NCBI GenBank assembly: GCA_020186115.1
Contig: WSYJ01000060.1
Span: 1,674,001 to 1,738,000, forward strand
From: Histomonas meleagridis
Taxonomy: Eukaryota; Parabasalia; Tritrichomonadida; Dientamoebidae
Direction of reading: 5' to 3'
DNA length: 64,000 bases
The notes under the pieces are model-generated. The model searched no databases, was not told where the DNA came from, and worked only from the letters and a program-made list of their open reading frames with translations. The position numbers were made by a program, and so were the translations under genes. Numbering within the stretch: the first letter of the stretch is position 1; each line of letters starts with the position of its first letter. Of this stretch, positions 13,235-52,158 are shown piece after piece.

Positions 13235-13662
13235 CTGTTGTAATAATTGAAAGCTTTACAATTTTTTTGTGTTGCCAAAATGATATGACACTTTTAAAAT
13301 TTAAAGAAAATCATCGCATCTTCAACTTTCATTCTTAAATATTAATCAAAATCCTACAATTCGGTATATACTTACTATATCGCATATTTTACCTAATTAT
13401 TTTAATATTGCTTTTCATTTTGATATCAAATAATGTGAAAAAATAAATATTATTAGTCATTTTCTAAATAAGCTTCTTGATCGCAAAAATGTTTTATTCA
13501 ATCTTAAGTTCAATAATTCAATAATATCTTCATGTATAAGCTTGAAAACCAAAGATAAGTCCAAAGACGTTAAGTCACTTCACGTCAACTCCCCTTTTCA
13601 CTTTTGATTTGAATTTCATCGTTAACCGACCAAATTTTCACTTCCGAAAAATATTTTAATAA
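13235..13662. promoter_or_regulatory. Shared 5' region of the BEACH and kinase-ankyrin genes
   Basis: This 428-bp AT-rich head-to-head spacer must contain the promoters of both divergent genes. On the kinase side it has the 16-bp motif ACGTTAAGTCACTTCA (13567-13582), then a short C-rich patch and a GTTAACCGACC site about 40 bp before the kinase ATG. The split into two promoters is inferred from gene orientation. Confidence 0.6.
13567..13582 (+). promoter_or_regulatory. 16-bp motif ACGTTAAGTCACTTCA, copy 1
   Basis: It lies about 80 bp before the ATG of the kinase-ankyrin gene, in sense orientation. Exact copies occur at 39912-39927 (plus) and 52143-52158 (minus), each upstream of a gene in the gene's orientation. 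The core AAGTCACTT is nearly palindromic. Confidence 0.6.
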
Positions 13663-15448
13663 ATGGAAAAAACAAAAGATAAAAAATTTCCACCACATGC
13701 AGAAGTTCTCATTCCACCAGCTGAACAAATTCAAGGTTCAGATACAAGTTATTCCAATTATTCCAATCCTCAATTTGTTTCGTCTTTAAATGCGTATGAT
13801 CCTCAATATCAAATTCAAGAAAACCTAGTTTTTACTGAACAAAATAAGCAACCATTTATTCCACAATTTACACCCAATTTATATTATACACCAGATCTAT
13901 CAGCTGACTTATTTAATGTTGAAGAATTTGAAGACTATGTAGCTAACCTTGATGATTATATCTCGCGCACACCAATAGGCCGAGGTTCCTTTGGTAATGT
14001 TTATTATTGTGTTCATCGATATACAGGATGGAAGTTTGTAATCAAAGAATTAAATCGTACAAATCTACCAGAGAAGCAGCATCTTTTTTTTGAGCGCGAA
14101 ATCAAGATATTATTACAGTGTAAAAATCCATTTTTATTAAATTGTTATGGCTTTACAATTCGACCTGAATTTACTATTGTCACTGAATATATGGAATTAG
14201 GTTCCTTATGGACATTACTCCATAAGAGTCCAAATTTATTAAATTCCACACAAAAAACAAACATTGCTATTGGCATTGCTCATGGGATGAAATATTTGCA
14301 TCATCATGGCATCATTCATCGTGACTTAAAATCTCCAAACATCTTATTAGATCATAAACTTTTACCAAAAATTTCTGACTTTGGTCTGAGTAAAATACTC
14401 AAAAGTTATGAAAGTAATAATGGCGAAGAAATAATGACTAATTGTACAGGCACCGCCAATTGGATGGCTCCTGAACAAATTAGTTCCAATTCTTATAGTT
14501 TCCAAGTTGATGTTTATGCATATGGGTTAATATTATATGAATTATTAACAGGCGAATGTCCATTTAACAAATTAAACCAAGTCCAAATATATGATGCTGT
14601 TCGATCTGGAATTAGACCTGAAATACCAATACAATATCGGAACTCATCGATTGTCAATTTAATTGTTAAATGTTGGCAACAAAATCCTTTCGATCGCCCA
14701 ACTTTCGATGAGATATATATTGAGTTAATTACGCGAAAAGTCGAGTTCCCAGGTACTAATAATGATGGAGTTAAGTTATTATTACATTATATTGATAATA
14801 AGACACAAGTTAATCATGAATCGAAACCTTTTAACTCATCGAAACTTCTAAATAATACTTTAAACATATATAATACTATAAATAATAATAATGACATTTT
14901 TTTGATGAAAAATAAATTATTCGAATATGCAAAAAATGGGAACATCGATGACTTCGTAAGCGTTTTCGTTTCGTTCTTAAATGTTAAGGATTTGATTAAT
15001 TATAGAGATAATAGTAGTTATATTTATTTATGTTTTTTGGAGTTTTTTCATCTTTTTTCAAACTGCTTTACATTATGCTTGTTGCTATGGTCAAGCTCAA
15101 ATGGTACAATTCCTACTTGGAATTCAAGGAATAAATATAAACATTAAAGATATTAACGGAAATACCCCATTATCTGTTGCTGTGCAATGTGAACAGAAGT
15201 TTATCGTTTCGCTGTTGATCAATTCAAACGGAATCGACGTAAACCTCTCAAATGAGTCGCTTTTGACACCTTTACATTACGCAGTAATTACTAACAACTC
15301 AGATATAGCTAAGTTACTTTTGTTTTGTAAAGATATTGATTTGAATGTTGTGGATGGAAATGGTAATACACCTTTGGACATAGCAATCAAACTTGGTTTT
15401 AATACATTGGCTGAAATGATTAATCAAAAATCTATAAACATGTTATAA
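13663..15448 (+). pseudogene. TKL-type protein kinase with C-terminal ankyrin repeats, frame broken by a 40-bp tract
   Basis: The kinase domain spans about residues 100-365: glycine loop GRGSFGNV, VIKEL lysine, catalytic HRDLKSPNILLD, DFGLSK, and GTANWMAPE in the activation segment. These are hallmarks of the TKL-like kinases common in trichomonads. The catalytic lysine, HRD and DFG are all present. A low-complexity linker leads into ankyrin repeats. The frame ends at 15147, but the ankyrin frame resumes in another phase to 15448. QTALHYACCYGQAQ is readable in that phase from 15059, directly after NSS if the bases at about 15019-15058 are skipped. No trichomonad splice signal is present. It may be a pseudogene, a truncated working kinase, an unusual intron or an assembly error. 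Confidence 0.75.
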
Positions 15449-15876
15449 AAATTTAATGTAAAATTAAACTTGTTCCAAAAAATTTTTATAAATTCACAAC
15501 AGGAAAAGAAAAATATAAATAAAAATATAAATAGAAGATTTGTTAATGAATTTGATTACATTTCATATTTTTAATATAAAATTTTGGAGAGCTACAATAT
15601 GATTTAAGTCATTTTTTATTTTTGCATATTAATTAAAATGATTAAATCAGCAATTTCAACCGTTAAAAAGTTGTGTAATTTCAATGTAAATATCAGAAAA
15701 AATTCAATTATTACTTTAAATGTTTTAAATTTGATATCAAATTGTCGGCGAAGACATTGAATCTTTCTAATTCAAATTGGTTAACCAAAATTTGGCTGAC
15801 TATGGCCTAATATTTTTTGAATTTGAGTTTCGTTTGCTTTCAAATTTGTTTTGATTAATTATTAAATTTCATTTTA
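15449..15876. other. Intergenic spacer, nothing recognised
   Basis: AT-rich sequence between the 3' end of the kinase-ankyrin locus and the 5' end of the LRR locus. It presumably contains the promoter of the latter. No frame, RNA or repeat was recognised. Confidence 0.5.
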
Positions 15877-17372
15877 ATGATCCATCTGTTCTTTCCATTA
15901 TTTTGGAGTTTTTTATATTCACAGCATAGATCAATTATTCAAAATAATGAATACATCATTGATGAATTTTCTTCAAATCTTCAAACTACCATTAAATCCA
16001 AAGAAGACACCTATGATCATTCAAATATTTTTCACTTTATAAAATTTAATGTATTAAGCTTTTGTCTAAATGTTGCATTGGTTATCATTTTAATATTCAT
16101 ATTTATTATTAGCAAAGGTTATTTTACAAAAATGAATTTAAAATATAAATCAAATCATAATGTTACTCCATTTGCTTTTGTGACGCTTTTCATATTTTCC
16201 ATTAAGAGTTTATTTTTTACTAGTAATGGAATAGTTGAAATTACTGATACTAATGAACTAAATACTATTGATAGCTATAAAAACCTAACCACCCGTGTTA
16301 TCATTGATGGTGCAGTTACGGGGGTTACAGATAGATGTTTTGTGGAATGGAATCAGTTATCAACTGAAAATATCGGAAATAGTGTTGTTTCGATTAGCTT
16401 TTCTGTGTTTTATTCTTGTTGCAAATTGGAATCTGTTATTTTTGGAGACAACGATGAAACAATTGGAAATAATGCATTTATATATTGTAGTTCATTAAGA
16501 AATATTACAATTCCAAATTCAGTGACAACAATTGGCTCTTATGTCTTTTATAATTTTTCCAAATTAGAATCTGTTATTTTTGGAGAAAATATCACAACAT
16601 TTGGAAATAATGTATTTAGATATTGTAGTTCACTTCAATGCATTTATTTCAATGGCACATCAGAACCAGATATATCTTCTACATCTTTTTATAATGTACC
16701 ATGTTCTAGAATAATGGTTAAGCCATATTATCAAGGGGAGAAATTTGGTGAATTAAAAGTTACTACAGAAGTAATTGCCGAATGCATTGTATCATCAAAT
16801 TCATTTACAAAATCAAATTCATTTACAAAATCAAATACATTTACAAAATCAAATACATTTACAAAATCAAATACATTTACAAAATCAGATTCATTTACTA
16901 AATCAAATACATTCACTAAATCAAATACATTTTAGTTTATTAATTATATTACCTTCTCTCACACTTGCACGCTAGTGCACACATTACCATTTCCACGGCA
17001 CTTCATATCATAAATTCATATTTGACGCAAGCATATTCTCCATCAATTATTAATTCTTCGCTTACACAATTAATTACAGAATATGTATATTACAATTCCA
17101 CAGTGTTCGCATACACAAAGTATTACAGTTTCTATTCCGACATATACACAGCTTTTGCGAAAGAAAATGAAGACAAAGATGAAACTATTGAAATCAAGAA
17201 AAGCACATTAATAGCGATCATTTGTTGCGTCGTTGCAATTGTTTTGATTGTTATTGCGATTGTTATCTTTATTGTACGTAGGAGCAAAACTAAGCCTTCG
17301 TATCATAACGATTTCGTAAAGTCTTCTTCAGAATCTAATTCGGACAAAAAGATTAAAGAAGACATATTCTGA
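15877..17372 (+). pseudogene. BspA-like LRR surface protein, split from its transmembrane tail
   Basis: The first frame (15877-16935, 352 residues) has two hydrophobic stretches (about 62-80 and 97-112), LRR_5 repeats (CSSLRNITIPNSVTTIGSYVF and relatives) and a stalk of FTKSNT hexapeptides, then stops at TAG. The next open frame in another phase runs to 17372 and carries what such proteins normally have at the C-terminus: a Ser/Thr/Tyr-rich stalk, a transmembrane helix (STLIAIICCVVAIVLIVIAIVIFIV) and a basic, Ser-rich cytoplasmic tail. That frame has no ATG near its start. One ancestral type-I surface protein broken near 16930-16960 is the simplest reading. An alternative N-terminus is the ATG at 16132, which opens directly on a hydrophobic segment. 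Confidence 0.65.
16795..16934 (+). repeat. 18-bp tandem repeat encoding (S)NTFTKS
   Basis: Seven complete 18-bp units of the form TCAAATACATTTACAAAA plus a 14-bp partial unit ending in the stop codon. The units differ at one to three positions. Confidence 0.9.
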
Positions 17373-18070
17373 AAACTTGCAAGTATGGTAATGTTCGAGA
17401 AAGAGAAATGGATGTAATGTAATAGATTTAGAGAAATTTTTAAGGAAATCTTAAATATGCTTTGAATATTGATGTAATACTTCTGTTGGATAATATATTT
17501 TATGAATTAGAATTCTAAAAAAAATATCGCAAATGAACGTCATTTATATGGAGTTGGAGTTCGATGATACCACAGCATTATCCGTTTTTTATATTGATTA
17601 CAAAGTTAAAAATATTTTATGAAGAAGTAATATTTCTAATGACGGAGTTTTTAAAAATTAAGTGAACAAATGATCAATAAATTGGAATTAAAGATAGATT
17701 AAAATTGTGATTATACAATAAATGACCAGATAAAACAATTCATCTATATAGTTTTAATATATTGTTTTAAATATTGAACTTAATTCTGATAAAATTTTAA
17801 ATAACAATCTTCAAAAAATATGAAAAAAATTTAATTAATTCATTTAATCAATATAATAAATTTATTATTTTGATCAAAATGATTTATAAATAAAAAATCA
17901 ATTAATATGAATTAAGCATTTTTATAAAAATCAGAAAGAAATTGTTTGATGGAAGATATAACAAATGAAAATGCCGTCGACCGATCATTTAATCAATGGC
18001 CGTTAATTTATAAGACGGTTATGAACTGAAATCTTTGAATTTTAAGAAGTTTGACTCAATTAGTTAAACG
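17373..18070. other. Intergenic region upstream of the Rab32-like gene
   Basis: No gene was found. Close to the Rab ATG are CCGTTAAT (about 18000) and GACGGTTATG (about 18014), which match Myb-type TAACGG/AACCGT sites in opposite orientations. The rest is AT-rich. Confidence 0.5.
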
Positions 18071-18715
18071 ATGGACAACACCGAAGAAGAAATCCAACCA
18101 ACACAAAAGGTACTCAAAATAATTGTTGTTGGCGATATGGGTACAGGAAAGACATCTCTGATCCGCAAATTTGTTGAAGGCAACTTTTCCGAATTTTATA
18201 AGATAACAATTGGTGTAGATTTTGCAAATAAGGTTCTTAAATTCGATGAAAATTCCACGGCTGATGTCCAGTTATGGGATATTGCAGGACAAGAACGTTT
18301 TGGTAGTATGACTGGAGTTTATTATAGAGAAGCTGTTGGAGCTGTTGTAGTTTTTGATGTTATGCGAAATGCAACATTTGATATGACTAAGGTTTGGAAG
18401 AAAGATATAGATGAAAAAGTCAGAACTTCTCTTGGCGTTCCAGTGCCAACAATTTTATTAGGAAATAAAATTGATCTTATGGAAAAAAACGAAGCATGGG
18501 AAAAGAAGAAGCAAGAAATCGAGGAGTACACCAAAGAAAACAACTTTTTGGCATTTTTCGAGACATCCGCCAAAGATGGAATTAACATTGACGAATCTCT
18601 CGAATACCTTGTTGAGTATATATTAAAGAATAACATCGAAAGCGAGAGCTCAAGAATGAATGATGGTGTACGACTTGGACAGAATCAACAAGAAGAAAAA
18701 GGCTGCGGTTGCTAA
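18071..18715 (+). CDS. Rab32/38-type small GTPase
   Basis: 214 residues with all Rab G motifs: GDMGTGKT (21-28), WDIAGQE (69-75), GNKIDL and ETSAKD. It ends GCGC, a double-cysteine geranylgeranylation signal. The Ile in WDIAGQE replaces the usual Thr and is the recognised signature of the Rab32/Rab38 subfamily; the ERFGSMTGVYYREAVGAVVVFDV stretch also matches it. Family members act at lysosome-related organelles and in recruiting retromer/BLOC machinery. In a trichomonad a role on phagosomes or lysosomes is a reasonable inference. The ATG is the first in frame. Myb-like sites lie 50-70 bp upstream. Confidence 0.93.
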   Translation: MDNTEEEIQPTQKVLKIIVVGDMGTGKTSLIRKFVEGNFSEFYKITIGVDFANKVLKFDENSTADVQLWDIAGQERFGSMTGVYYREAVGAVVVFDVMRNATFDMTKVWKKDIDEKVRTSLGVPVPTILLGNKIDLMEKNEAWEKKKQEIEEYTKENNFLAFFETSAKDGINIDESLEYLVEYILKNNIESESSRMNDGVRLGQNQQEEKGCGC

Positions 18716-26050: not shown

Positions 26051-26650
26051 TTAAAGATTATTGTTATTGTGAACGCTATCTTGGTTGTTCCCATTTTCGT
26101 GAGCTAATAACAAATTAGGGTCAATTTGATTTAAACCCATTTCGAGCTGTGCACGAGCTTGCGTTTGATTTCGCAACCCAGAATACCATCGATTCTTGAT
26201 GGAACTGGGACTTCTGCCTTGTAGCTTTTGTGCTATGAGTGACCAGCGATTACCCAGCTCTTTTTGTGATTGAATAATGACTTGATCTTCCCAAGGCTCA
26301 AATGGATCGTGACGAATTCCTGGCTGCAGCCTCTGAAACCACCTCTCACGGCATTGCTTAGGAGTTCTGGTCGGCACAAATTTTGCTATGTCAGTCCATT
26401 TTTTAGGACCAAGTTGATTGACTGCAGTTGTTAGCATCTCGTCTTCTTGCTGATTCCACGTACCTCTTGTTATCATTGAATTATCTTTTGGTGATTGCTG
26501 TATTCGCATAAGAAAATTAATTAAATCTTGTGGCTGGATTGAAGTATTCGAACAAATTTGTGGATACCCATCAATTTGTTGTTGAACTCCTTGAATGGGC
26601 GCTTGCTGTTGTTGTTGCTGTATTGAGTTTTGATCTAAATCATTCATCAT
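26051..26650 (-). CDS. R2R3 Myb-like DNA-binding protein
   Basis: 199 residues. A Gln-rich N-terminus precedes two Myb repeats: R2 at about 61-108 (W65, W85, W104) and R3 at about 113-160 (W120, W136, W155). The R2 recognition helix reads TPKQCRERW and that of R3 reads SPSSIKNRW, both standard. The C-terminal 35 residues are Asn/Gln-rich. Trichomonads use small R2R3 Myb factors as sequence-specific regulators and one as a core-promoter factor. TAACGG-type sites are frequent in this window, but no direct link can be shown. A second Met follows immediately. Confidence 0.93.
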   Translation of the reverse strand: MMNDLDQNSIQQQQQQAPIQGVQQQIDGYPQICSNTSIQPQDLINFLMRIQQSPKDNSMITRGTWNQQEDEMLTTAVNQLGPKKWTDIAKFVPTRTPKQCRERWFQRLQPGIRHDPFEPWEDQVIIQSQKELGNRWSLIAQKLQGRSPSSIKNRWYSGLRNQTQARAQLEMGLNQIDPNLLLAHENGNNQDSVHNNNNL

Positions 26651-27065: not shown

Positions 27066-28175
27066 TTATTCTGTCTTATAATATACAATCAGTGCTTGTA
27101 ACGCACTAATCAAAATCTGCACAAGGAATGCTAAGCCACTATAAATTAAGTCTTTTGTCAGTACACCCTTCAAATCTAATTTCTCCTCTTCCACATTTTC
27201 AAGGTCTAGTTCAGCAAACGCAGCATTGCCTTGGTCCAAATCAACTTCTTCGTCCTCTAAATATGCCGAAAATCGATCGAACCATGAAAAGTCATTATGC
27301 GATTGAATGAACATCACAAGCAAAAACGAAACAAAGAATTGGTATCCAAACCCAGATATGATCAATGACCATGCGTTATCGTATGCATACGACGTTTTAT
27401 ATTGATCAAGTGGATTACAAATGAGATATGCAACACATGCGAAAAAGAGTAAACAAGAACATACAAAAGATACAATAACAGGAACTAAACTGATAAAGCA
27501 CTCAATAACTATGCCAAAACAAATGGAAAAAAGAATTTGTAAAACATTGGATTTTCCATATAGGACATCATAAACAGATAAAAAGATAATGAAAAAGACG
27601 GCCATGAGCTTGACGATAAAGCCATTGAAACAGATGGTGAATATTTTGCGAAGAACTGGATTCAATTCTAAAAATAATGGATTATCATTATTATTACGAC
27701 CACCATATTTCATAAAGAAAATGGCCATAGCGGTTTCTATTACAACGTTAACAGATGGTAATTGATATTCAAATCCGAGATAATTCATGAATGGCCCACT
27801 TTGATTTGTATGTGCACATGGACCAGGTTGTTGAGTAATCCACCCAAGCACAGGCGATATAAGATTAGCAAAGGTGCAGGTGTACAAAAATTTAAGTAAT
27901 TGAAGTCGACTTCGATGATATAATTTCTGCATTTTTTTCTGTTTTCCAGAGGCTTGGAATAAGAAAATAACAGGAAGAATAATAACTAAGTAAACAGCAG
28001 CCATGCCTATAAAGTAAAATGAGACCCAATCAGAAAAAGAAGAAAAAATACCATCGGTTATGTCATCCAGAAAATTTTGGTAGCAATTAAGAAAAAAGCT
28101 ATCTCCAAAAGTAGAAGCAAGATAGTTTTTGAGCATTTCGTTATCGCTTGTAGTAAATTGGGTTGGTTTAGACAT
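27066..28175 (-). CDS. Multi-pass membrane protein, possible catalytically degenerate PAP2-family protein
   Basis: 369 residues with about seven hydrophobic helices. The order of landmarks resembles lipid/sugar phosphatases of the PAP2 superfamily: an early helix ending NLISPVLGWITQQPGPC (position of the KX6RP-type motif), then YQLPSVNVVIETAMAIFF (position of PSGH) and LYGKSNVLQILFSICFG (position of the SRX5HX3D motif). The catalytic residues themselves are absent: PSVN has no His and the third motif has neither Arg nor His. An acidic loop of about 45 residues precedes the last helix. Either this is a non-catalytic relative or the resemblance is fortuitous. Confidence 0.65.
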   Translation of the reverse strand: MSKPTQFTTSDNEMLKNYLASTFGDSFFLNCYQNFLDDITDGIFSSFSDWVSFYFIGMAAVYLVIILPVIFLFQASGKQKKMQKLYHRSRLQLLKFLYTCTFANLISPVLGWITQQPGPCAHTNQSGPFMNYLGFEYQLPSVNVVIETAMAIFFMKYGGRNNNDNPLFLELNPVLRKIFTICFNGFIVKLMAVFFIIFLSVYDVLYGKSNVLQILFSICFGIVIECFISLVPVIVSFVCSCLLFFACVAYLICNPLDQYKTSYAYDNAWSLIISGFGYQFFVSFLLVMFIQSHNDFSWFDRFSAYLEDEEVDLDQGNAAFAELDLENVEEEKLDLKGVLTKDLIYSGLAFLVQILISALQALIVYYKTE

Positions 28176-28363
28176 TTGTCAAAATGTGTATTTTGTCACT
28201 TTTGGAACGGTTGGTGATAAAAACGGTTAATACAAATTTGAACCGAATTCAATTTTTGAAAGAATAAAAAAAAGTGTTTATGGGTGAAATCGTTTAACGT
28301 CTTCAAAGCTCCATCTGGTGTAAATAATTAAAAAAGTTGTGTTAATAACGTACAAAAAATGTA
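28176..28363. promoter_or_regulatory. Bidirectional promoter region with repeated AACGGTT sites
   Basis: A 188-bp divergent spacer between the PAP2-like and USP genes. Two AACGGTT sites (about 28207 and 28222), both containing the Myb core AACGG, lie 13-15 bp apart. A GTCACTTTTGG element sits at about 28195. Both genes may use it. Confidence 0.5.
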
Positions 28364-30154
28364 ATGGAAACTAATTTAATGAATCAAAAGAAATTTCTTC
28401 AAAAAAATAAATCATCATTAACAAATTTGGACCCAAAAGGTGGCTCTATTCAAGTAATAGCAGTTGATAAAGTATGGTATGGAGATTTAATCAATTGGCT
28501 GTTCAACGGTTCAAAAACAATTCCTAGCAAAATTAAATCCCCAGACATTTTGCTAAATAACCAACTCAAAAAAGGAGTTCGAGTTGGTATTGATTTTGAA
28601 GTTGTTCATACAAATATTTGGTCATATTTAACAAATATTTTTTCAACGCCAAAGCAGAAAATCCAAGGCTTTCTAGTTTACACTGAAACCAAAAGAGAAG
28701 TAGAATTTGTTTATCCACCGCAAACAATTCAAATCCAATTTGGTCGCCAAACTCTAATAAGGGTTGCATCACTTTCATGGTTAATCAAAGAAATCAAAGA
28801 AAGTGCGTGTAATCAATGTCATGTGTATCCTTCAAAATCGTTTTTGTATCACTTGCAAACTAACAGCAAAATTGATGATTCATTAACAGTCGAAAAGGTT
28901 CTAAAACAGTATGGAAACAATTTCGAGCTTCGATGTATTGAAAGTCATAAATTATTTTCCACTCCAAATTCTAAAACGCCTCATATTTTCAAGCCAGATG
29001 TCAATTTGCAATCACCACGTAAACCAATTCAATCCATAAATACTGTTAAAACCCCCACAAAATTATCTCCTCGACCACCTTTATCACCAATACCAAACAA
29101 ACAAGTACAAAAAAAATCAGCATCAAATATATTCCAAGAACCTCAACCTTCTTTACCTCTTCTTAACTCACCTATTAGTACACCATCATATCCCAATCCT
29201 GTTGGGCTTGTAAATCTTGGAAATACTTGTTTTTTAAATGCGTCATTACAATGTATTTGTCGAATTAAGCCACTTGTTTCATTTATTCTTTCCACTGATT
29301 TTGACTCCCAAATAAACATCAACAACTCTCTTGGATCAAAAGGAAAGATTGCACGTGCATTTCGGAATTTTCTTATTGAAATTTCTTCCTCTCGAAGTGC
29401 TGTAAATCCATCAAAATTACGTGAAGCTATAATTTCCAAATATAGGCGATTCTCCAATTTTGCACAACATGATTCACAAGAGTTCCTTAATGCTCTGATT
29501 GATGGACTTCATGAAGATTTTAATCAACCTTCAAAAGACAAAACGCTTGAAAATGCTGATTCATTAGAGCTTCATTTATCACGTAATTCTTCTCCAATAC
29601 AGAAGATATTCCTCGGAAGCATGTTCAGCAGCATTGAATGTCCTGAATGCGGTTTCAGCAAAATTGTGAGGGATCCGTTTATGTTTTTTACAGTTGATGT
29701 GCCGAAAAGTGTCATTGGAGTACGTTTATTGAATTGTTTGAAAAAGTTTAATCAATGCGAAATTCTTGATAAAGATAACTTGTGGGAATGTGAAAAATGT
29801 GGAAAAAAAGTAAGAGCAAGAAAAAGAATGGGTTTGAATGAATGTCCAAATGTGTTAATTATACATTTGAAACGCTTTTCTGAAAATGGACATTTTGCAA
29901 GAAAAAATGAAACAAAAGTTGAATATCCAGATTTATTGTCTTCCAAGGATTTTATGGAAAAGGATTGTGGAGATTATAATTTGGTCGGAGTTGTATGCCA
30001 TTGCGGAGGATTGAATGGAGGACATTACACAGCTATGGCATTAGACCAAAAAAATAACATTTGGTACTATTTCAATGACTCGATTGTCAAGAAAATTAGC
30101 GCATCTTCTGCTCATGTAAGTGATGCATATGTTTTGTTTTATCAGCGTATATAA
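28364..30154 (+). CDS. Ubiquitin-specific protease (DUSP plus USP domains, peptidase C19)
   Basis: 596 residues. The N-terminal part (about 20-100, VDKVWYGDLINWL ... GVDFEVVHTNIWSYLTNIF in outline) resembles a DUSP domain, followed by a ubiquitin-like segment and a Pro-rich linker. The USP domain starts at about 280 with the Cys box GLVNLGNTCFLNASLQC (catalytic Cys near 289). Two CxxC pairs (CPECG, CEKCG) form the zinc-stabilised fingers. The His box is GGHYTAMALDQ (His near 552), followed by WYYFNDS with the third catalytic residue. All catalytic residues are present. The architecture is like USP4/11/15. It removes ubiquitin from proteins; the substrate is unknown. The TAA stop overlaps TAAATAAA. 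Confidence 0.95.
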   Translation: METNLMNQKKFLQKNKSSLTNLDPKGGSIQVIAVDKVWYGDLINWLFNGSKTIPSKIKSPDILLNNQLKKGVRVGIDFEVVHTNIWSYLTNIFSTPKQKIQGFLVYTETKREVEFVYPPQTIQIQFGRQTLIRVASLSWLIKEIKESACNQCHVYPSKSFLYHLQTNSKIDDSLTVEKVLKQYGNNFELRCIESHKLFSTPNSKTPHIFKPDVNLQSPRKPIQSINTVKTPTKLSPRPPLSPIPNKQVQKKSASNIFQEPQPSLPLLNSPISTPSYPNPVGLVNLGNTCFLNASLQCICRIKPLVSFILSTDFDSQININNSLGSKGKIARAFRNFLIEISSSRSAVNPSKLREAIISKYRRFSNFAQHDSQEFLNALIDGLHEDFNQPSKDKTLENADSLELHLSRNSSPIQKIFLGSMFSSIECPECGFSKIVRDPFMFFTVDVPKSVIGVRLLNCLKKFNQCEILDKDNLWECEKCGKKVRARKRMGLNECPNVLIIHLKRFSENGHFARKNETKVEYPDLLSSKDFMEKDCGDYNLVGVVCHCGGLNGGHYTAMALDQKNNIWYYFNDSIVKKISASSAHVSDAYVLFYQRI

Positions 30155-39113: not shown

Positions 39114-39971
39114 TTTTATTCATATAATAAATAAAAGATCTGTTCATTATGTTAGATAATAGAGGAAATTATCCTCGTGACAAAATAAAATCTCAATTTA
39201 TTCGCTTATTTGTTTTCAATTTATATCGATAGTGGGATGATTTTTGTTTGAATACAGATTATGTTTATTATTTTGAATCAATTGTGCATTTTTCTGATTG
39301 CTTACCAGTGATTATGAGTGTTTATGTATTTTTGAGATAAAAAAGGATGTTTATCAAAATTTGTGATTCTTAGAAAATGAATATCCATTATTTTTTCTTT
39401 TTAAAAATGATAATTAATTATTTGATTTTTATATATTATTATTATGCACTACTTGGATAGGATTGTATTTGAACTATAATACATTGATGAAGTGCATGGA
39501 AATAAATCTGAATTTAGTTGGATTCAAACTATTTTTTAAAAACTTTACAGTAAAGCACGCTAAATAACGATACAATAAAGCAGTCAGCAAATAAATTCCT
39601 TCAATCGCTCACAGCTAACAAATTAACTCCAAGTTTGAAAAGCAGACACTTTTCTATGATTGAGTATGAATTTCAAACATCTTTCCTCAATTGGTATCAT
39701 TAAAAATCACGAAACCCTCGAACAACCAATCCACACAGAGGGTTTTTGCTCATTTTATTAAGGTAATCCGTTTCATGTTGTCACAAGATGAAGGTGTACA
39801 TTTCTCCATTTAAATAAAACGTAAAAACCAATTTTTTTAGAAAAAAGGATAGCAGCGAATAAAGTTTCGTATGGTGTTTTCCATATTTTGGAATTCGTTT
39901 GCATAGAAAAGACGTTAAGTCACTTCAAATTTATAGTCTGGGGCACCCTAAAAGCAAAAAAATCGAAAGAA
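39114..39971. other. Intergenic region with a hairpin and the 16-bp motif
   Basis: No gene. A GC-rich 8-bp hairpin (AAACCCTC 39712-39719 with GAGGGTTT 39738-39745, followed by T residues) stands out. The 16-bp motif copy 2 is at 39912-39927, 45 bp before the ATG of the next gene. Confidence 0.5.
39912..39927 (+). promoter_or_regulatory. 16-bp motif ACGTTAAGTCACTTCA, copy 2
   Basis: Identical to the copies at 13567 and 52143. It supports the ATG at 39972 as the true start, because the in-frame extension to 39888 (TTG) would place this shared promoter motif inside coding sequence. Confidence 0.6.
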
Positions 39972-42900
39972 ATGTTTAACTTTGAACAATCATATAAAAC
40001 ATTTGCTAAAATATGTAATGTTTCTTCTGATTGTTCTAAATTTAAGTCAACGTTCCCAAACCTCCAAAATGCAGCAACAGAAAAAACAAATTCAGATCAA
40101 GATGATGTAATTCTTTGGGATTCTGGAGCGCCAATACCTTGCTTGCTTGGTAAAGCCCGTACCTCCCAAGTAGATACAATTATTGGATCTGTATTATTAA
40201 TATCTTGTAATACTGCTTTTCTCATTGCTTCATCAATTCTAGAAGGCCAAATGAAGAAAGAAACGCAATGTAGTATCCAAATCATATATACTGCGATTAA
40301 AGACACAATAAAAGAACAACTTCCGAATTTTGATGAAGAAACACAAACGCTTTTTTCAAAATATCTTGAATTTTTTACAACAATTGAAGACCATGCTTCA
40401 TTAGAAGATATAAGAACAGCATCAGCAACAATTCAAAGTAAGGTTTATTCAATGTTCGAAATCCATCCATTTTTTGGTGATTTTGTTTATTTGATCTTCC
40501 AGTTCCTCTTGAATTTCCAATCCTTTGGGATCATAGAGCTTGCTTCTAACATGTTCCAAGAATTTTCCAAAATCGAAAAACCTGTCATAAAGGCACTAAA
40601 ATTACTCTTGAAACAAAAGTTCCAATCATCAACCAATAAATTCCAAGAGATCAACAAAATTCTTTCAGATTCAATAGCTTCAATGCCAGCTGAATATCCT
40701 TATTATTTAAGCCGTAAGTATGTGATTGAATCACTTCTTCCTCTTACTGATCAAATCTTACATCTTTGCTCGAAACTTCCAAACAGCCTCTTTGGCCAAT
40801 CATTTCACGCGTCAGAAACCGAATATCTTCCAATTGAATTTTCTCAATCGTTCCTATCAATTTTCACAGCAGAAACCGTCGAACATGAGTACGTTAAGCA
40901 ACTTGCATTATCATTAAACTCATGTACAAATGATACATTATTACAATATTTATGTAGTGGCGCATCCTATTTTTTTGACGAAATACTTGGCTATACTTCA
41001 ATAATTTCATCGTTATTGCCAATTGAACCAAATTCATTAATTGAACATTTGTCATATTTATTACAACAATTATCACCAATCTTTTCAGCGATATCAAATC
41101 AATTTTATCAAACGATTAAAGCTTCAAATATTAATTTAGATCCATCATTAAACTTTTCATTTAATGGAATTAATGCTACAATTACAACACCACTTTCGGC
41201 GTTACAAACAATAATGATATATAATAACATTCAACCACTTCTCCCAGAAGACAAACAAGAAATGTTATCAAGTTATTATAATAATTTAGTTAATATTTCA
41301 TTATCTTGGATTATTACAATTACAAAACTTTTGAGGTTATTTGAAATGAAAATTGTTGAAATGTTAATTGACATCATTGACATACAATATAATTTATCTA
41401 ATGAAGTTAAAACTAAAATTCTTGAAGATTATAATCACTTAGATAAATGCGATATATCGAAATTAGATTTTAATCAAATAATCCAAATCTTAACGTATTC
41501 CAAGTCAATTAACGAAATAATCATTTCAAAATTTGACGAGATACGATCATTTAAGACACAATCATTTGCATGCTTTACACCGAATTTTCAAAGCATAACC
41601 GAATTTGTTGATTCTTCGATATCAATTATTAATGAATTAAATGAAATATTAAATTCAACGCCAACCACCTCAAAAATCAACACAACTATATATCAACAAA
41701 ACTCATCAATTTTATTACAAAAAATGTTTTTCCAAGTAGATACATTAATGACAGCGATTTCCACACAATTTGAATATGTTCCATCAGTTTTATCTAATTT
41801 AAGGTTACAAATCTTTCAATTAAACCTCCAAATAATACCATTAAAAATTAATGTTAATTTATTACAAGAAAAATTAAATATCTTAAGTAATGAAAACGAT
41901 GTTAAAAAACTACTTGAACTATCATCAGAATATCAAAACTATATTCAAGATTTGATACAAAAAGTATTAGCGCCACGAATCGATGAAAACTTTGTACAAA
42001 AAATGCGATTATCAAATAAAGAAGATGTTGACACATTAATACAAAAAATTGATTCTCCTGAAATACGAAACGAAATTTTATATGAAATTCATTCGATATA
42101 TGAAAATCCGATTTATCGCCAAGAACAAAAGAAAATCGAAATAAACCTCAAGAAAGTTATTGAGATGCGAGTTCGAAATGATTATCCATTAGACATAACG
42201 AAAATCGCGCAACTTACTGAGAAAGAAATTTATGATAACTCGTTAGCCATAGCTGCGATAATTCCATTATATGCAGGAGAGAACCTCGAAATATTACAAA
42301 AGCAAATCGCTCCTTTAATATTACGTAATTCTGCACCTGAAATACATCAAATTGTTAGAGATACTTTGGTACAATTTACGTATTCAGACCCATTGAACTC
42401 AAAGTTAAATGAAATAGTGCAAAATATCGTAAATGGTGAAACTGAAATCGAAGACAAGATTAAAGAAATTGCCAAAACTTTTAATATTAATAACCTTCCA
42501 AAATTACAAAGCGAAGATCAAGAAAAAATATTTTATCAACTTTTGACTTTGTTGGCATATTCGATTACTGCTCCGAAAGGTCCGTTTTCTGATGATAAAA
42601 TTAAGAAATGGAAAAAAGATTTATTCGATCCGAAGTTAAATCAAGATGAAATCAAATCAATAGTTTATGAAGCTTTAAGATCTTCTTTGTTAACAGCTGT
42701 AATGAATAATGATTATGATGTACAATTAATGTATAAATATCAATATGTTTTGTCAGCTTTGGATAATTACGAAAATGATCAGTCAGATTACAATAAACGG
42801 TCGCTGGTCGCATCAATTTGTTTACTGCCGACCGTTATGAGGCCGTTTGGCGAGATTAACATGAATTGGGCGGTTGCGGTTACTTTACTACAACCGAGTT

Positions 42901-44144
42901 CGATTAATCAGTTAATTGAACTTGAAAATGAAACAGATTTTTATCAATATATTTCAGATGTATTTCCTCCACCTGTAAAATTACAGGATACTATTTCTAC
43001 GACTTCAAGACATTCATCATCAGTATTTACTATTTCAAGAATGAACTCAATGTATTCAAATGATGAGAAAATGCCACTGATGACTGGCAGTGATGACTTC
43101 TCTGATATGTCAGATGATGAAGAACCTGTTGTAATTTATCAAGATGTTATTGAGGAAGAAGAAGTTGGAGAACCAGAAACTATCGAAGAAATAGAAGAAG
43201 TATTTATCGAAGAAGATGAAAATGAACCAATTAATGATGAATTAATCCAAAAAGAAATTGCTTATAAACAATTATCTGAAAGCGAGAAACTATTATCAAA
43301 GTTATATAAATATGTCAAATCATTAGAAATACAAGTTGTTAATGTAAAACTTCAACAGTTTTGCTCTTCTACAATTGATTTAATAGAAAACAAGCTTTTA
43401 GACAAACAAAAAATTATTTCAATAACCGATAAAGTAAAGTCTATCGTCAATGAAATAACCGACGACGATAGATCCAAATCCAAAGAATTGAAACCGTTTA
43501 TCAAAGAATTCAATGAGCTCACACAAAAATTCTCAGAAAAAGATTCAATTGATTCAATTAATTCAAAAATCACCCTCATGAATTCAGTTTTGTATAAACT
43601 TGTACAAAGAATGGAGTGCCCCAATGAGGAAACGTTAATGAACTTAGATCAAATTCGAAGAGATTTTGTGATAAATTCACCAGATATTTTGAATAGTTTA
43701 CGCGAGTTTAACAAGACGTTATCGGTTTTGATCGGCAACAGTGAAAAAGTGGAAAATCCGAAACAAATCTTAAATGCATTAACACATGTTTTTAAGGCCT
43801 CTTTTATGTTTTATTTAATGTATTTCTTATATGATTTTTATGATAATGAACTTGACATGAAATGTATATCATTATGTCGAAGAATGCAATGTTCTATGAA
43901 TGATTTAATTTCGACTTTAACTGATAAAAAGTCAAAGGATTATGCAGACCTGATGGAGATATATGATGAAATCAATGAGAAACTGAAGAATTTGATGAAC
44001 GACACCGACAAAGCGAAGGGAGTCCTTTCGGACACGATGGAATACGCAAAGAAGAAATTGGACATGCAGGCACTGCTGATAAAGAGAAGGGCGGAACTGA
44101 AAGAAGCTGAGGACGAAGTGAAAAGACTTTCTGATATTGAATAA
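39972..44144 (+). CDS. Large helical protein of unknown function, possibly talin/vinculin-like
   Basis: 1390 residues from the first ATG (MFNFEQSYKTF). It is almost entirely predicted helix with long amphipathic stretches. One very acidic region (about 1040-1080: IEEEEVGEPETIEEIEEVF) follows a Ser-rich patch with possible phosphosites. The last 100 residues are bundle-like, ending in a charged coiled coil (ALLIKRRAELKEAEDEVKRL). The series of helical bundles and the terminal coiled coil recall the rod and C-terminus of talin/HIP1R proteins, but no I/LWEQ or FERM signature can be shown, so this is only a suggestion. The 16-bp motif lies 45 bp upstream, and the TAA stop overlaps TAAA. Confidence 0.8.
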   Translation: MFNFEQSYKTFAKICNVSSDCSKFKSTFPNLQNAATEKTNSDQDDVILWDSGAPIPCLLGKARTSQVDTIIGSVLLISCNTAFLIASSILEGQMKKETQCSIQIIYTAIKDTIKEQLPNFDEETQTLFSKYLEFFTTIEDHASLEDIRTASATIQSKVYSMFEIHPFFGDFVYLIFQFLLNFQSFGIIELASNMFQEFSKIEKPVIKALKLLLKQKFQSSTNKFQEINKILSDSIASMPAEYPYYLSRKYVIESLLPLTDQILHLCSKLPNSLFGQSFHASETEYLPIEFSQSFLSIFTAETVEHEYVKQLALSLNSCTNDTLLQYLCSGASYFFDEILGYTSIISSLLPIEPNSLIEHLSYLLQQLSPIFSAISNQFYQTIKASNINLDPSLNFSFNGINATITTPLSALQTIMIYNNIQPLLPEDKQEMLSSYYNNLVNISLSWIITITKLLRLFEMKIVEMLIDIIDIQYNLSNEVKTKILEDYNHLDKCDISKLDFNQIIQILTYSKSINEIIISKFDEIRSFKTQSFACFTPNFQSITEFVDSSISIINELNEILNSTPTTSKINTTIYQQNSSILLQKMFFQVDTLMTAISTQFEYVPSVLSNLRLQIFQLNLQIIPLKINVNLLQEKLNILSNENDVKKLLELSSEYQNYIQDLIQKVLAPRIDENFVQKMRLSNKEDVDTLIQKIDSPEIRNEILYEIHSIYENPIYRQEQKKIEINLKKVIEMRVRNDYPLDITKIAQLTEKEIYDNSLAIAAIIPLYAGENLEILQKQIAPLILRNSAPEIHQIVRDTLVQFTYSDPLNSKLNEIVQNIVNGETEIEDKIKEIAKTFNINNLPKLQSEDQEKIFYQLLTLLAYSITAPKGPFSDDKIKKWKKDLFDPKLNQDEIKSIVYEALRSSLLTAVMNNDYDVQLMYKYQYVLSALDNYENDQSDYNKRSLVASICLLPTVMRPFGEINMNWAVAVTLLQPSSINQLIELENETDFYQYISDVFPPPVKLQDTISTTSRHSSSVFTISRMNSMYSNDEKMPLMTGSDDFSDMSDDEEPVVIYQDVIEEEEVGEPETIEEIEEVFIEEDENEPINDELIQKEIAYKQLSESEKLLSKLYKYVKSLEIQVVNVKLQQFCSSTIDLIENKLLDKQKIISITDKVKSIVNEITDDDRSKSKELKPFIKEFNELTQKFSEKDSIDSINSKITLMNSVLYKLVQRMECPNEETLMNLDQIRRDFVINSPDILNSLREFNKTLSVLIGNSEKVENPKQILNALTHVFKASFMFYLMYFLYDFYDNELDMKCISLCRRMQCSMNDLISTLTDKKSKDYADLMEIYDEINEKLKNLMNDTDKAKGVLSDTMEYAKKKLDMQALLIKRRAELKEAEDEVKRLSDIE

Positions 44145-47117: not shown

Positions 47118-47395
47118 TCCTATAATTGTTTTGACTTACAGTACTTCAATTTTTTCCCCTCGTTCCGAGATTATTATTACAATTGCTCACATCAAGACAT
47201 ATGAGTATGTAGGTCTTTATGATAACATTGATATTCTATAAATTCAGTTGATCAGAGTTCTTTCTTCCTAAAACAGCACTTTTTAAGTTTGCTTTCAATT
47301 ATTGGAATTCAAATTTCAGAGAGCTGAATTCAGCGGTTATTGTTAACTGTAATATTTACACCAAAAGTGCGAGTCTTTAAAAAAAACCAACACAA

Positions 47396-48052
47396 ATGAG
47401 CCAAAACAAGTTTGCATGTGAAATGGCAAAGACTTACATTAGCTCCTCACTTGCTGGAGCTATAACTAATGATTTTGTTAATGGTATATCTCAATCACCA
47501 AAACCGTTCGATATAAAAAACTCAATATATGAAGGCCTCCAAGTTGGAACTAATTTTGTTGCTTATCCTATAGCTGAAAAAGTCCTCCATAGAAGTTCTA
47601 AAAAATATCGGAAAAGCAAAAACAAGAATAAAGTTTTTATGTACACAGCAAATGCTCTTGTTACTTCAGCTATCGTTGCTTCAGTAAATTATCCAATTGT
47701 AGTTATGCAGAAGTCACATAACAAAGAACCATATAATATATCACTTAAAGATTTTGGTATTTATTTTGTGGATCAAATACTTCCTAACATCGGTTTTCCT
47801 GTTGCAAATGATTACCTGGAAAAAGTTGTTCCGAATTCTACTAACACAATGATTCAATATCTACGAAATTCAGGTATTGCAGCAATTGCATCACTTTCTG
47901 GATCAGTTGCAAATCTTCCACTTTCAATGATTAAAGATCATGCGACAATATCAGGAACAATTTCAGATTGGTTTAAATCGATTGGTGGAATCACATTCAC
48001 CAATGATTCATTCGCTCACTTCTCCAAAGTGTTCGGATCCATAACTAAATAA
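47396..48052 (+). CDS. Small membrane-associated protein of unknown function
   Basis: 218 residues. Two similar hydrophobic stretches, each followed by Pro and a basic residue (TSAIVASVNYPIVVMQK near 90-112 and AAIASLSGSVANLPLSMIKD near 165-185), vaguely echo the helix ends of mitochondrial carriers, but the PxDxxK signature is missing. There is no signal peptide. A mildly basic central segment (SSKKYRKSKNKNKVF) is present. A hydrogenosomal inner-membrane protein is one possibility and is weakly supported. A GCGGTTATTGTTAACTG site lies about 60 bp upstream, and the stop overlaps TAAA. The compact open frame and context make it a real gene. Confidence 0.7.
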   Translation: MSQNKFACEMAKTYISSSLAGAITNDFVNGISQSPKPFDIKNSIYEGLQVGTNFVAYPIAEKVLHRSSKKYRKSKNKNKVFMYTANALVTSAIVASVNYPIVVMQKSHNKEPYNISLKDFGIYFVDQILPNIGFPVANDYLEKVVPNSTNTMIQYLRNSGIAAIASLSGSVANLPLSMIKDHATISGTISDWFKSIGGITFTNDSFAHFSKVFGSITK

Positions 48053-48533
48053 AACAAAAACCTTCAACCGTACTTTGGTTTTTCTTCGTAAAATATTTAA
48101 ATAATGCTTGTCAATTAAGAATTAAAACGTGCTCTTAATATTTTATAATAAGGCATGAATAATAAACCCAAAGCATTCTTTGTTTTGAAATAAATATAAT
48201 TTTTGGCAGTAAATAAAAGTTAAAAAATGATCAGCACATGCTTTCTTTTTATACTATTGCATATTTAAACATAAAGTGACTCCTATTTTTAAAAACATAA
48301 ATAAAAACAATATATGCAACAAATTATGTTGAGAATTTCGTAATTTATTCATATCTTATATGAATAGGAAAGTAAAGCAATTTTAAGTCACAGATACAAT
48401 TACATCTATTAATTTCGTTAACTTTTTAAAAAGTTATCAATTGCTTAATTTAAGAATCGTCATGATTCAGGTGTGAAGTGAATTCTAATCGTTTTCTATT
48501 GAAAATCAACATCGTCAAAAAATTGGAAGAAAA
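48053..48533. other. Intergenic spacer, nothing recognised
   Basis: About 480 bp of AT-rich DNA between two same-strand genes. No features beyond presumed UTR and promoter. Confidence 0.5.
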
Positions 48534-50234
48534 ATGAATGGAAGCCCAAGGAGTCGCTCGCTTTCGCAGCTTGTATCAACTTCTTACAAAACTCAACCAA
48601 AGAAGAATTTTGCTATGCTTTCTTGCTATTTAGATTTGTGTTATTGTCCAATTTCACAAATTGAAAAAAAAGAACCACCTTTCCCACTTCTTATTGACAA
48701 AAAAAAATTTATTTCAGGACAAATACCAGGTCTTAATCCCAACGAAACCAAATATGTTGATGCATTAGAGTTTAATTCATTGACAGTTTCTGTCATGATT
48801 AGCATCATTAGCAACGAAAGGAAATTTATTCATGATATATCCCTTCTCATACGTATTATTAGTAGTCTTGATGGCACCAACTTTTCACCACTCTATGGTG
48901 GGTTCTATTCCATCTTAAATGAAATCTTATCCAAGCATGAACCATATCTCAAAAAGCTTGAAAACCTTATCAAGAACCGCAACTCATTATTTCTTGCTGA
49001 TTTTGTTGAGAGTTTTACCAATTGTAGTCCGTTAATACAATCACATCAAAAATATATTATCCAATATCTTCACTACGAGAACCTTACGATGGACCTATCA
49101 GCCAATTGTCCTGAAGAAATCCAAAATCAGATTGACGATGTTCTCATACATTATTTCAAGTTACCAATTCAATGGCATCAATTCATAAGCAAGACCACAC
49201 GTACTCTTTCCAATGTTCTTCCCCTATACACCAATCCCCAAATCCGCTCCACCCTTATCAAATATGCCAAATACAATTCTGATCTATATGCGTCAACAGA
49301 CTCCATACCAAAGCTCGAAGAAATCAGCCGAATGTTTTTACGCGAGCCACTTCCCATTGTAGTTCCCGGACGTCGAGTTATTCGCATTGGCAAAGCATCC
49401 AAACAATGTCGAAAATCCATTTCCGAGCGGGACATTATATTATTTTCGGACTTTTTCCTATACGTACAAGTGAAAGGTGGCATGTATGTTATGCCAGGGA
49501 TTTATGACTTATTACATTTACGAGTTGAGTCTAAAGGCCATAACAAAACATACGCGTTGTTTTTCTTCTCTCCCATGAAGAGTTTTATTTTATATTTCAA
49601 CACAAGTAATGAAAGAGATCAATGGGAAGCAGATATTAACGAAGCGATTAAGAACATTCGTGAGCATCAAATCATCAAGAAATATAAAGAGGCGCCGATA
49701 TGGACTCCCGATTGTTTGATTAATGAGTGCTGCAATTGTCATCATCCTTTGTCATTCTTCACGCGAAAACATCACTGCAGAAGTTGCGGGAAAATATTTT
49801 GCAGCGATTGCTTGTCGCATAAGGTCATAATGAAGAACATTTCGAATGAGCCATGCAAAGTTTGCGATCAATGCTTCAAGAGAATTAATAAGCAAAAAAT
49901 TGTGTCGATATATAGAACAAATCCTGAAGAAGATGAACTGGAATCCGATGAGGAAGAAGATGAAGCGCCAAAACTATTCAGCGGACTGAACTTGGAACAA
50001 TTGCCGTCAACGTACCATACGCATTCGTCATCGGAAACATCAGAAGAAGAGGAAAATAAAGAAAACGAACACAGCGAAAGTGATAACGAAAATGAAAACG
50101 AAAACGAAAATGATGACAACGCATTCGATATACAGAAGCTATGGCCAATACCGCCGAGCTTGATGGAGGTGTCGAACAGGCAAAGGGCATCGTGCAGCTT
50201 GCCGAATTTTAATGATACGAGAAAACTTTCGTAA
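48534..50234 (+). CDS. DH-PH-FYVE Rho guanine nucleotide exchange factor (FGD-like)
   Basis: 566 residues. A RhoGEF (DH) helical domain lies at about 80-265 (SNERKFIHDISLLIRII as its first helix, LPIQWHQFI near its last conserved helix), a PH domain at about 280-385 (ERDIILFSDFFLYVQ, W in ERDQWEADI) and a FYVE zinc finger at about 393-455. The FYVE keeps the WTPD start, the RKHHCRSCGKIFCSDC core and all eight Cys positions, so it should bind PI3P. The C-terminus is acidic and Ser-rich. The order DH-PH-FYVE matches the FGD family that activates Rho GTPases at endosomes or the cortex; trichomonads need such factors for amoeboid adhesion and phagocytosis (inference). Confidence 0.93.
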   Translation: MNGSPRSRSLSQLVSTSYKTQPKKNFAMLSCYLDLCYCPISQIEKKEPPFPLLIDKKKFISGQIPGLNPNETKYVDALEFNSLTVSVMISIISNERKFIHDISLLIRIISSLDGTNFSPLYGGFYSILNEILSKHEPYLKKLENLIKNRNSLFLADFVESFTNCSPLIQSHQKYIIQYLHYENLTMDLSANCPEEIQNQIDDVLIHYFKLPIQWHQFISKTTRTLSNVLPLYTNPQIRSTLIKYAKYNSDLYASTDSIPKLEEISRMFLREPLPIVVPGRRVIRIGKASKQCRKSISERDIILFSDFFLYVQVKGGMYVMPGIYDLLHLRVESKGHNKTYALFFFSPMKSFILYFNTSNERDQWEADINEAIKNIREHQIIKKYKEAPIWTPDCLINECCNCHHPLSFFTRKHHCRSCGKIFCSDCLSHKVIMKNISNEPCKVCDQCFKRINKQKIVSIYRTNPEEDELESDEEEDEAPKLFSGLNLEQLPSTYHTHSSSETSEEEENKENEHSESDNENENENENDDNAFDIQKLWPIPPSLMEVSNRQRASCSLPNFNDTRKLS

Positions 50235-50628
50235 TGACTTTGGATAATAAAATGTTTAAAATTTGATTTGTGAAAATAATTAATTTCTCATTATTAATAT
50301 TTAAGAAAGAAAATGGTAACGAAATAAAATTAATTGAATAATAAAATTGAATAATTATGTACAACTATGGATTATGAAATTTTTACAAACATGATTTTAA
50401 CTAAATTTATGAAATTCATATCATATGTTATTATTTTAAGGGAATATTGAAGCCAATAACACACAGTAAAACTTAAGAAAAAGACGAATTTCATACATTA
50501 CATTACTCAAACTAATGCATATTTGTTGGCTCTAATATTTTTTGTTAAAATTTCACCATAATAATGAGGAATAAAAAAAAGTAACACATGTTAAACAAAT
50601 TTATAAACAAACAACAAACACAAGTCTT
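50235..50628. other. Convergent spacer, nothing recognised
   Basis: 3' flanks of the RhoGEF and the kinase. It contains ATAACACACAG at about 50457, similar to the trichomonad intron 3' consensus but without a partner 5' site or flanking coding sequence. Confidence 0.5.
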
Positions 50629-52005
50629 CTATTTCTTCAAATGTGTCTCCAAATACTTTGTAAAACTCCCCATCAAAGCTTCTGATGACTTATCAGCGCA
50701 TAATACCATAGTTGCCTCATTATTTCCAGGTCCGTCAACTATGCTAAACGACATTCTCATCTCTGTGCCATCACTTCTTTGCAGAACAATCGTTGGCGAC
50801 AAAGATAAAGGCGACGATATGCAGCACTTTTGTTTGATGGCCAAATTATGTAACGATGAATAAACGGTCGCAGCTGTTCCTGCAAAAGTAATTCGCTTCT
50901 CTTTGATTGCCACGTTATTCATTGTGGGCATCGGAAAGAATCCTTTCTTGGAAGGGTCTTGAGATGACGATGATGCAGGCATGATTGTAGGAAACTCACG
51001 TGGACTTAACCATGATCTATCTTGACGTTTTAATAAGAGGAAAATAAGCTTTTCTCTGTTCATTTCATTAGATTTGAGCTTGGCATTATACGTTGTCGTA
51101 TCAATTCCAGTGACTTGGGTTAAACGAGAAATTAGTATTTCATCTGAATAAACCATTCGGTCAATCTTTAAAGATGACAATGGGTCTTTGCGACGGGTCT
51201 GTGTGGATTTAATGGCTGGATATGAACGACATTCTGTTGCATTTGGACGTTTATTAGGATCAATGGATAATAATTGTTGAATGAGTTGATGAAAATCTTT
51301 TGGGATGGGACCGTAATCGACCGGAGTATTAAAATCGAAATCGCGTGATACATTGTGAAACGGTAATCTTCTTGAGAGAATAGTATAAATAACTACTCCA
51401 CAACTCCACATATCTGCTTTAAATCCATTAAACTCTTGTTCATGTATAGCCTCTGGAGCTGAATATTCATAAGATCCGCAATTACCATGAACCATTCCAT
51501 TAAATGTTAATGATGCAAATCCGAAATCACATAACTTAAGTCCATGCTTGGATAAAAGAAGATTTTCAAGCTTAATGTCACGATGGCAAATACCAATTCC
51601 GTGAATATATTCAACAGCTGAAAATAATTGATCTATTAATCTGATTGCAATTGAAATTTCAAAAGGAGATTTCCTTAATTTACGTAGTAGATCGCCGTGT
51701 TCAGCATAACGCATGAATTGAAATATTTGTGTGTCATTATCTGCTATTTCTTCAATCTCAATAATGCATGGATGATTAAGTAATGGGGCAAGGATAGCTT
51801 CGTTGAACAATATCCTCTTTCCCATTGGGCATTTAAGTAGTTTGGTTTTCGATATTATCTTTACTGCATATTGTTTCTTAGAACGAGCATGAATAGCACT
51901 TCTAATTGATGAAAAAACACCCTTTCCAATTGGTTCGCCAATAACATAATCCAATATTTTGTTAGTTTTATTGCTTGGAGGGCTTTTGGTTGGGGGCACA
52001 TGCAT
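50629..52005 (-). CDS. CAMK/AMPK-like Ser/Thr protein kinase
   Basis: 458 residues. The kinase domain is at about 16-275: GKGVFSSIR loop, AVKIISKTKL lysine, HRDIKLENLLL catalytic loop, DFGFAS, and an activation segment GNCGSYEYSAPEA with SAPEA in place of YAPE, then DMWSCGVVIYTIL and a final RPNATECRSYPAI. All catalytic residues are intact. The C-terminal 180 residues include a ubiquitin-associated-like stretch and a final domain of mixed strands that could be KA1-like, as in AMPK-related and MARK kinases; that part is uncertain. The 16-bp motif is 138 bp upstream in the sense direction. Confidence 0.92.
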   Translation of the reverse strand: MHVPPTKSPPSNKTNKILDYVIGEPIGKGVFSSIRSAIHARSKKQYAVKIISKTKLLKCPMGKRILFNEAILAPLLNHPCIIEIEEIADNDTQIFQFMRYAEHGDLLRKLRKSPFEISIAIRLIDQLFSAVEYIHGIGICHRDIKLENLLLSKHGLKLCDFGFASLTFNGMVHGNCGSYEYSAPEAIHEQEFNGFKADMWSCGVVIYTILSRRLPFHNVSRDFDFNTPVDYGPIPKDFHQLIQQLLSIDPNKRPNATECRSYPAIKSTQTRRKDPLSSLKIDRMVYSDEILISRLTQVTGIDTTTYNAKLKSNEMNREKLIFLLLKRQDRSWLSPREFPTIMPASSSSQDPSKKGFFPMPTMNNVAIKEKRITFAGTAATVYSSLHNLAIKQKCCISSPLSLSPTIVLQRSDGTEMRMSFSIVDGPGNNEATMVLCADKSSEALMGSFTKYLETHLKK

Positions 52006-52142
52006 ATTCAGGAGATTTAAAAAAGTGACGCATAAATTGGATTCAATGTCGTAATGTTTTCAGTATCTTTTCAAAATTGAATACTCTGGAAAAGCTTTTC
52101 ATAGAAATTGAGAAAATTGAAAAACTGGTGCTTTGGGGTAGA

Positions 52143-52158
52143 TGAAGTGACTTAACGT
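52143..52158 (-). promoter_or_regulatory. 16-bp motif ACGTTAAGTCACTTCA, copy 3
   Basis: Reads TGAAGTGACTTAACGT on the plus strand. It is in sense orientation for the kinase starting at 52005, 138 bp upstream. Identical to the copies at 13567 and 39912. Confidence 0.6.

Follow-up and report, generated by a model that had tools for sequence, protein, structure and literature searches.

Most detailed knowledge of parabasalid promoters comes from Trichomonas vaginalis, and the initiator (Inr) of this organism is bound by IBP39 via its IBD domain. The T. vaginalis promoter elements considered here are those treated in the consulted parts of five publications (PMC7370421, PMC4693282, PMC5366954, PMC11702783, PMC9203502). 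They include the trichomonad Inr, TCA+1Py(T/A) (PMC4693282), the M5 element CCTTT (PMC7370421) and, for M3 and the Myb recognition elements (MRE), the patterns [AGT][AG]C[GC]G[TC]T[TAG], TAACGATA, TATCGT and [CT]AAC[GT]G (PMC9203502). Here we describe a 16-bp motif of the parabasalid Histomonas meleagridis, a parasite of poultry, that was noticed in a stretch of 64,000 nucleotides (contig WSYJ01000060.1, positions 1,674,001 to 1,738,000 of the forward strand; 29.8% GC), called the window throughout. A first-pass annotation of the window had listed three exact copies, each upstream of a gene and in its orientation, and had proposed a composite core-promoter or factor-binding element, with a hint of co-regulation in that two of the genes are kinases. 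We show here that the motif occurs far beyond chance, that it is non-coding and lies mostly close to gene starts in a fixed orientation, and that one of its halves is constrained. It is probably a new promoter-proximal element of a parabasalid. A search of a literature collection, which motifs displayed in figures alone would escape, gave no account of it among the matches listed.

Results

The searched Histomonas meleagridis assembly comprises 43,276,120 bases in 121 contigs; for the virulent strain, the consulted part of the genome publication reports 43,414,808 bases, 187 contigs and 28.66% GC (PMC8529796). We found 20 exact copies of the 16-mer, compared to 0.025 expected from base composition. 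With at most one mismatch there are 65 copies against a single one for the reversed pattern, and with at most two mismatches 144 against 28, hence about 116 above control, which is near 1% of the 11,119 genes. The 65 copies are slightly clustered, with 5 pairs of neighbours no more than 20 kb apart where 1.9 would be expected (P 0.04). The surroundings of all 65 copies were read (loci numbered L), and 59 loci were tested after removal of six near-identical ones, using open reading frames (ORFs) of at least 120 residues. A single one of these 59 copies overlaps an ORF, compared to 6,166 of 10,700 random positions. Of the ORFs closest downstream of the motif, at most 200 bp away, 34 turn their start and 4 their end towards it (P 6e-7), and a divergent start within 200 bp upstream of the motif is present in 3 loci. 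At random non-coding positions, which were drawn from the same loci and the window and are thus not an independent control, starts account for 12.2% and ends for 8.8%. Given this difference, copies of the motif go with gene starts, the outcome that the first-pass annotation had expected of a genome-wide scan. In one case, L039, the ATG of a racemase gene lies just 10 bp past the motif, which makes it likely that transcription begins at the motif or close to it there.

The consensus of the element is AAAG-ACGTTAA-R-TCAYTTSA with the 16-mer as its core, and a matrix built from the 59 loci, highly informative across all 16 bases, has the form AAAG-ACGTTAAGTCACTTCA-C. The two halves of the core differ in their tolerance of changes. 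Among the 45 single-mismatch copies, counted from the copy list without correction for relatedness of the loci, the change falls into positions 1-7 (ACGTTAA) in 3 and into positions 8-16 in 42, including G to A at position 8 (14 times), changes at position 15 (8 times), C to T at position 12 (7 times), T to C at position 13 (4 times) and changes at position 10 (4 times). TCACTT, occupying positions 9-14, is retained in most, not all, variants. A two-part structure is plausible from the counts of 3 and 42, and to this extent the composite nature proposed earlier stands; the element may, but need not, be a core promoter in the strict sense. Further traits are restricted to few loci, several of which belong to the module families F1 and F2 described below: 10 of the 65 loci (5 in F1, two of the remainder paralogues) complete ACGT on the right side, yielding the near-palindrome ACGTtAAGTcACTTcACGT, and 4 of the 65, each in or near F2, have an inverted TTAACGT 14-16 bp upstream of the motif. 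From the sequence, we read the near-palindrome and the inverted TTAACGT as signs of a protein site with ACGTTAA as its unit.

Many copies are part of larger dispersed modules, which fall into three families, F1 (15 loci), F2 (5 loci and 2 in part) and F3 (7 loci and 1 in part). These families are alike only at the motif end, with a constant 3' border at about +16 to +24 and a ragged 5' border. F1 extends over about 420 bp, and the genes on its two sides are unrelated. Ankyrin genes, which lie upstream in L098, L100 and, by eye, L099, were considered as the source of F1 and rejected, since other loci have different upstream genes. The F1 module of L031 is interrupted at about 840-1226 by some 390 bases that are absent from the other copies. 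Among the remaining loci are recent paralogues (L025/L034/L045, L028/L050/L052 and L047/L048). With ORFs of at least 100 residues, a sense start within 200 bp was found in 21 of 30 loci outside modules, 7 of 14 in F1, 3 of 7 in F2 and 3 of 8 in F3.

A DNA search of the genome with one F1 module returned that module alone, and such a search therefore misses diverged F1 copies. Box patterns brought up 8 additional F1 copies, in 5 of which the motif is broken. The first pattern gave 87 matches against 44 for its reversed control (10 fetched, 6 of them F1), the second 72 against 20 (12 further stretches fetched) and the third 8 against none. Across the resulting 23 F1 copies, a sense ORF within 600 bp accompanies 13 of 18 intact motifs and none of 5 broken ones (P 0.007), and within 200 bp the figures are 9 of 18 and 0 of 5 (P 0.12), a contrast that was devised after the data were seen. 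Twelve stretches with the F2 box were examined (L078-L089). L078, its near-copy L079, and L081 carry neither motif nor ORF, L080 is without motif, and L084 has an ORF without motif. Motif and sense ORF are found together in L082 and L083, the latter with an additional, nearer antisense ORF, and L086 has a sense ORF and a motif that is split; the remaining four are doubtful members. Another repeat, TTATCTGTTATAATAGATT, recurs near many contig ends, for example C5:402, C88:741, C92:998173 and C40:3083138, and is perhaps subtelomeric.

In the window itself, the three exact copies were recovered upstream of genes in sense orientation, as first described, at 80, 44 and 137 bp from the ATG, which agrees to a base with the 45-138 bp given before. 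Copy 1 (13567-13582, plus strand) lies 80 bp 5' of the ATG of a protein kinase ORF of 494 residues (13663-15147, plus). This gene had been labelled a kinase-ankyrin gene; the kinase part holds, and the ankyrin part is a separate ORF (15101-15448) that overlaps it in another frame. An intron or a frame error at the overlap, 15101-15147, is possible. Copy 2 (39912-39927, plus) stands 44 bp 5' of the ATG of an ORF of 1390 residues without Pfam match (39972-44144, plus), and copy 3 (52143-52158, minus) 137 bp 5' of the ATG of another protein kinase ORF, of 458 residues (50629-52005, minus). Apart from the motif, Inr-like TCACTT occurs at 13638-13643 (plus), 25 bp 5' of the ATG of the first kinase, and at 52023-52028 (minus), 23 bp 5' of that of the second. 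Together with L021, these genes starting at 13663 and 52005 have a separate TCAYTW 22-25 bp 5' of the ATG, and the motif may therefore act from upstream there. The window copies lie outside F1-F3 except for weak profile matches of 50-70 bp, such as 39882-39933 around copy 2, which matches the last part of the F1 profile (E 1e-4).

Three exact 16-mers compare to 3.7e-5 expected from the base composition of the window, and with at most three mismatches 7 matches were found (one of them being the 13567 copy read in reverse) vs a mean of 0.64 in shuffles, a count reached in 0 of 100; the earlier judgement that this is far beyond chance is thereby upheld. If 20 genomic copies fell randomly, three in some 64-kb window would have P 0.0076, and hence the window is a mild local cluster. 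The matrix scan added a weaker copy of 18.3 bits with 4 mismatches (28285-28300, minus), located 109 bp 5' of an ORF for a PAP2-type protein (27066-28175, minus) and also, in the other orientation, 63 bp from a gene at 28364-30154 (plus). The palindrome-like AAGTTAAGTGACTTTT, described as a related copy at 52452, is present at that site. Its kinship to the motif did not hold, since it is not among the matrix hits of at least 11 bits. Elsewhere in the window, 4898-5803 (minus) encodes a LysM-repeat protein with a C-terminal part that we presume to resemble a chitinase/lysozyme fold, possibly of bacterial origin.

The proteins encoded downstream of the motif were scanned in 43 cases, 3 from the window and 40 from other loci. 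They include a fibrillarin, a ubiquitin hydrolase, subtilases, a DPP IV, HAD phosphatases, a pfkB carbohydrate kinase, an EF-hand protein, ankyrin proteins, an LCAT and a racemase, and have no common theme. Protein kinases are encoded downstream of L008, L010, L012, L013 and L057, thus 5 of 43. The gene set of Histomonas meleagridis contains 609 kinases in 11,119 genes, according to the consulted part of its description (PMC8529796), so that about 2.4 would be expected and the excess is about twofold. A kinase bias of the motif genes is weak. That the motif is a binding site co-regulating a functional class such as kinases, as the first-pass annotation had hinted, draws on these five proteins; given the expected number and the mixed company of the others, we consider it most improbable.

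Discussion

The account we favour, and to which we assign about even chances, is that the 16-mer forms the core of a promoter-proximal element that is rare and fixed in orientation and of which modules have spread copies. The ACGTTAA half, which reads TAACG on the other strand, would be recognised by one of the many Myb-type proteins, and the TCAYTW half could be bound by a dimer partner or by one of the IBD proteins. Candidates of both kinds are encoded in the genome, which has 90 matches to IBD (PF10416) above the cut-off, a few with an internal stop, and at least 150 Myb domain matches. A Myb gene with two repeats is found inside the window (26051-26650, minus). Where the ATG is close, both halves together might direct initiation at the motif, and where it is far, the motif may assist an Inr-like site closer to the ATG. 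Of the close copies, about half would have spread as the 3' edge of the non-coding modules.

Several observations weigh against this account. The motif stands at the 3' edge of the three unrelated non-coding module families in 27 of the 65 copies, and in 3 more in part, and because these copies lie inside dispersed modules they do not count as independent events. In 25 of the 59 loci no sense ORF begins within 200 bp, and in L018, L030, L032 and L053 the motif faces a gene end 36-104 bp away. Distances from motif to ATG are broad, mostly 10-170 bp, and the first ATG of each ORF served as gene start in place of annotated or mapped starts. The stretch from motif to start contains 37 ATGs in 2,606 bases and is thus sparser in them than the DNA 5' of the motif (110 in 5,100); compared to 41 in shuffles, however, ATGs are not clearly depleted there (P of as few 0.26). 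The TCAYTW pattern is not enriched in 84 other promoters taken from the window and the loci, with 20 having it within 80 bp of the ATG, 19 its reverse complement and 23 the pattern at -200..-120.

This last result bears equally on the possibility that the motif is the general trichomonad Inr, TCAYTW, with a flank conserved by chance. TCACTT fits TCA+1Py(T/A), IBD proteins are numerous, and the C to T change at position 12, seen in seven single-mismatch copies, is allowed by the pyrimidine. The ACGTTAA half is nevertheless conserved better than the TCACTT half, and TCACCT in four single-mismatch copies violates TCAYTW. Together with the lack of enrichment, this makes a general Inr improbable. 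Still less probable is a role of the motif as promoter for a class of non-coding RNA genes, the adjacent ORFs being incidental. The 25 loci lacking a near sense start would be in line with it, but neither the window nor 20 loci gave an Rfam match, and 34 of the 59 loci do have such a start.

A further explanation, which we hold to be rather unlikely although it deserves more weight than the two preceding ones, derives the motif from the modules: it would be the terminal sequence of short non-autonomous transposable element families, F1-F3, the unique copies would be eroded ends, and the proximity to genes would reflect insertion preference or loss elsewhere. Membership in a dispersed repeat had been named in the first-pass annotation as evidence against a promoter element, and it applies to the module-borne share of the copies given above. 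It fits this explanation that three families unrelated upstream have this end alone in common, with a fixed 3' and a ragged 5' edge, that unrelated genes flank F1 on both sides and that module copies without motif exist. L035 and L067 moreover have flanks with an 8-mer and a 9-mer common to both sides, possibly by chance in AT-rich DNA. However, the 34-to-4 sense bias would need orientation-specific insertion, and sequence changes avoid ACGTTAA. No terminal inverted repeats and no convincing target-site duplication were seen for the modules. Near-palindromic self-hits aside, a matrix search of the oriented loci found an inverted motif partner in L041 only, at -650 and without flanking duplication. 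No transposase was recognised beside the modules, in an inspection that included no systematic search for one.

The promoter-proximal element and mobile modules may also be combined. We suggest with much reserve that unrelated module families inherited, or converged on, one 20-bp end that acts as an orientation-fixed promoter element, and that they make up a mobile promoter system. If this is true, every insertion or duplication might connect an unrelated gene to a shared regulon read by an IBD or Myb paralogue, and, should the modules be mobile, the parasite would have one way to spread promoters among genes. The modules carrying the motif pose a more interesting question than the element itself. 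A strongly conserved element of fixed orientation that lacks the M3, MRE and M5 patterns offers about a hundred sites for testing and raises the question of the role of the 90 IBD and more than 100 Myb matches.

How does the element compare to known systems? M5 of T. vaginalis is likewise an alternative start-proximal element; its CCTTT is absent from the 16-mer by inspection. In the 84 comparison promoters CCTTT was found in 7 near the ATG vs 3 upstream, and in 8 as reverse complement, and no clear alternative initiator emerged from k-mers close to the ATG. M3, the Myb-like core element, and MRE-1/MRE-2r and MRE-2f of ap65-1 are similar to the motif in being short and near gene starts, and the TAACG core of TAACGATA is present when the Histomonas motif is read on the other strand. 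By inspection, the 16-mer matches none of the complete M3, MRE-1/2r, MRE-2f and YAACKG patterns on either strand. Independently of the motif, 11 of the 84 promoters have M3-like AACSGTT no further than 80 bp from the ATG, vs 1 of 84 with it in -200..-120, and AACCGTT/AACGGTT is mainly seen 20-60 bp 5' of ATGs, for example upstream of 27066-28175 (minus) in the window. With miniature inverted-repeat transposable elements (MITEs) the modules F1-F3 have in common that they are short, non-coding and dispersed with a common edge; they differ from them in that no terminal inverted repeats and no convincing target-site duplications were seen and in the strong sense bias to genes. The likeness to the T. 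vaginalis Inr lies in the sense-oriented TCACTT just 5' of genes and in the many IBD matches of the genome. In contrast, the best-conserved Histomonas half, ACGTTAA, is not part of the Inr, and the Histomonas motif occurs in about 1% of genes rather than in most.

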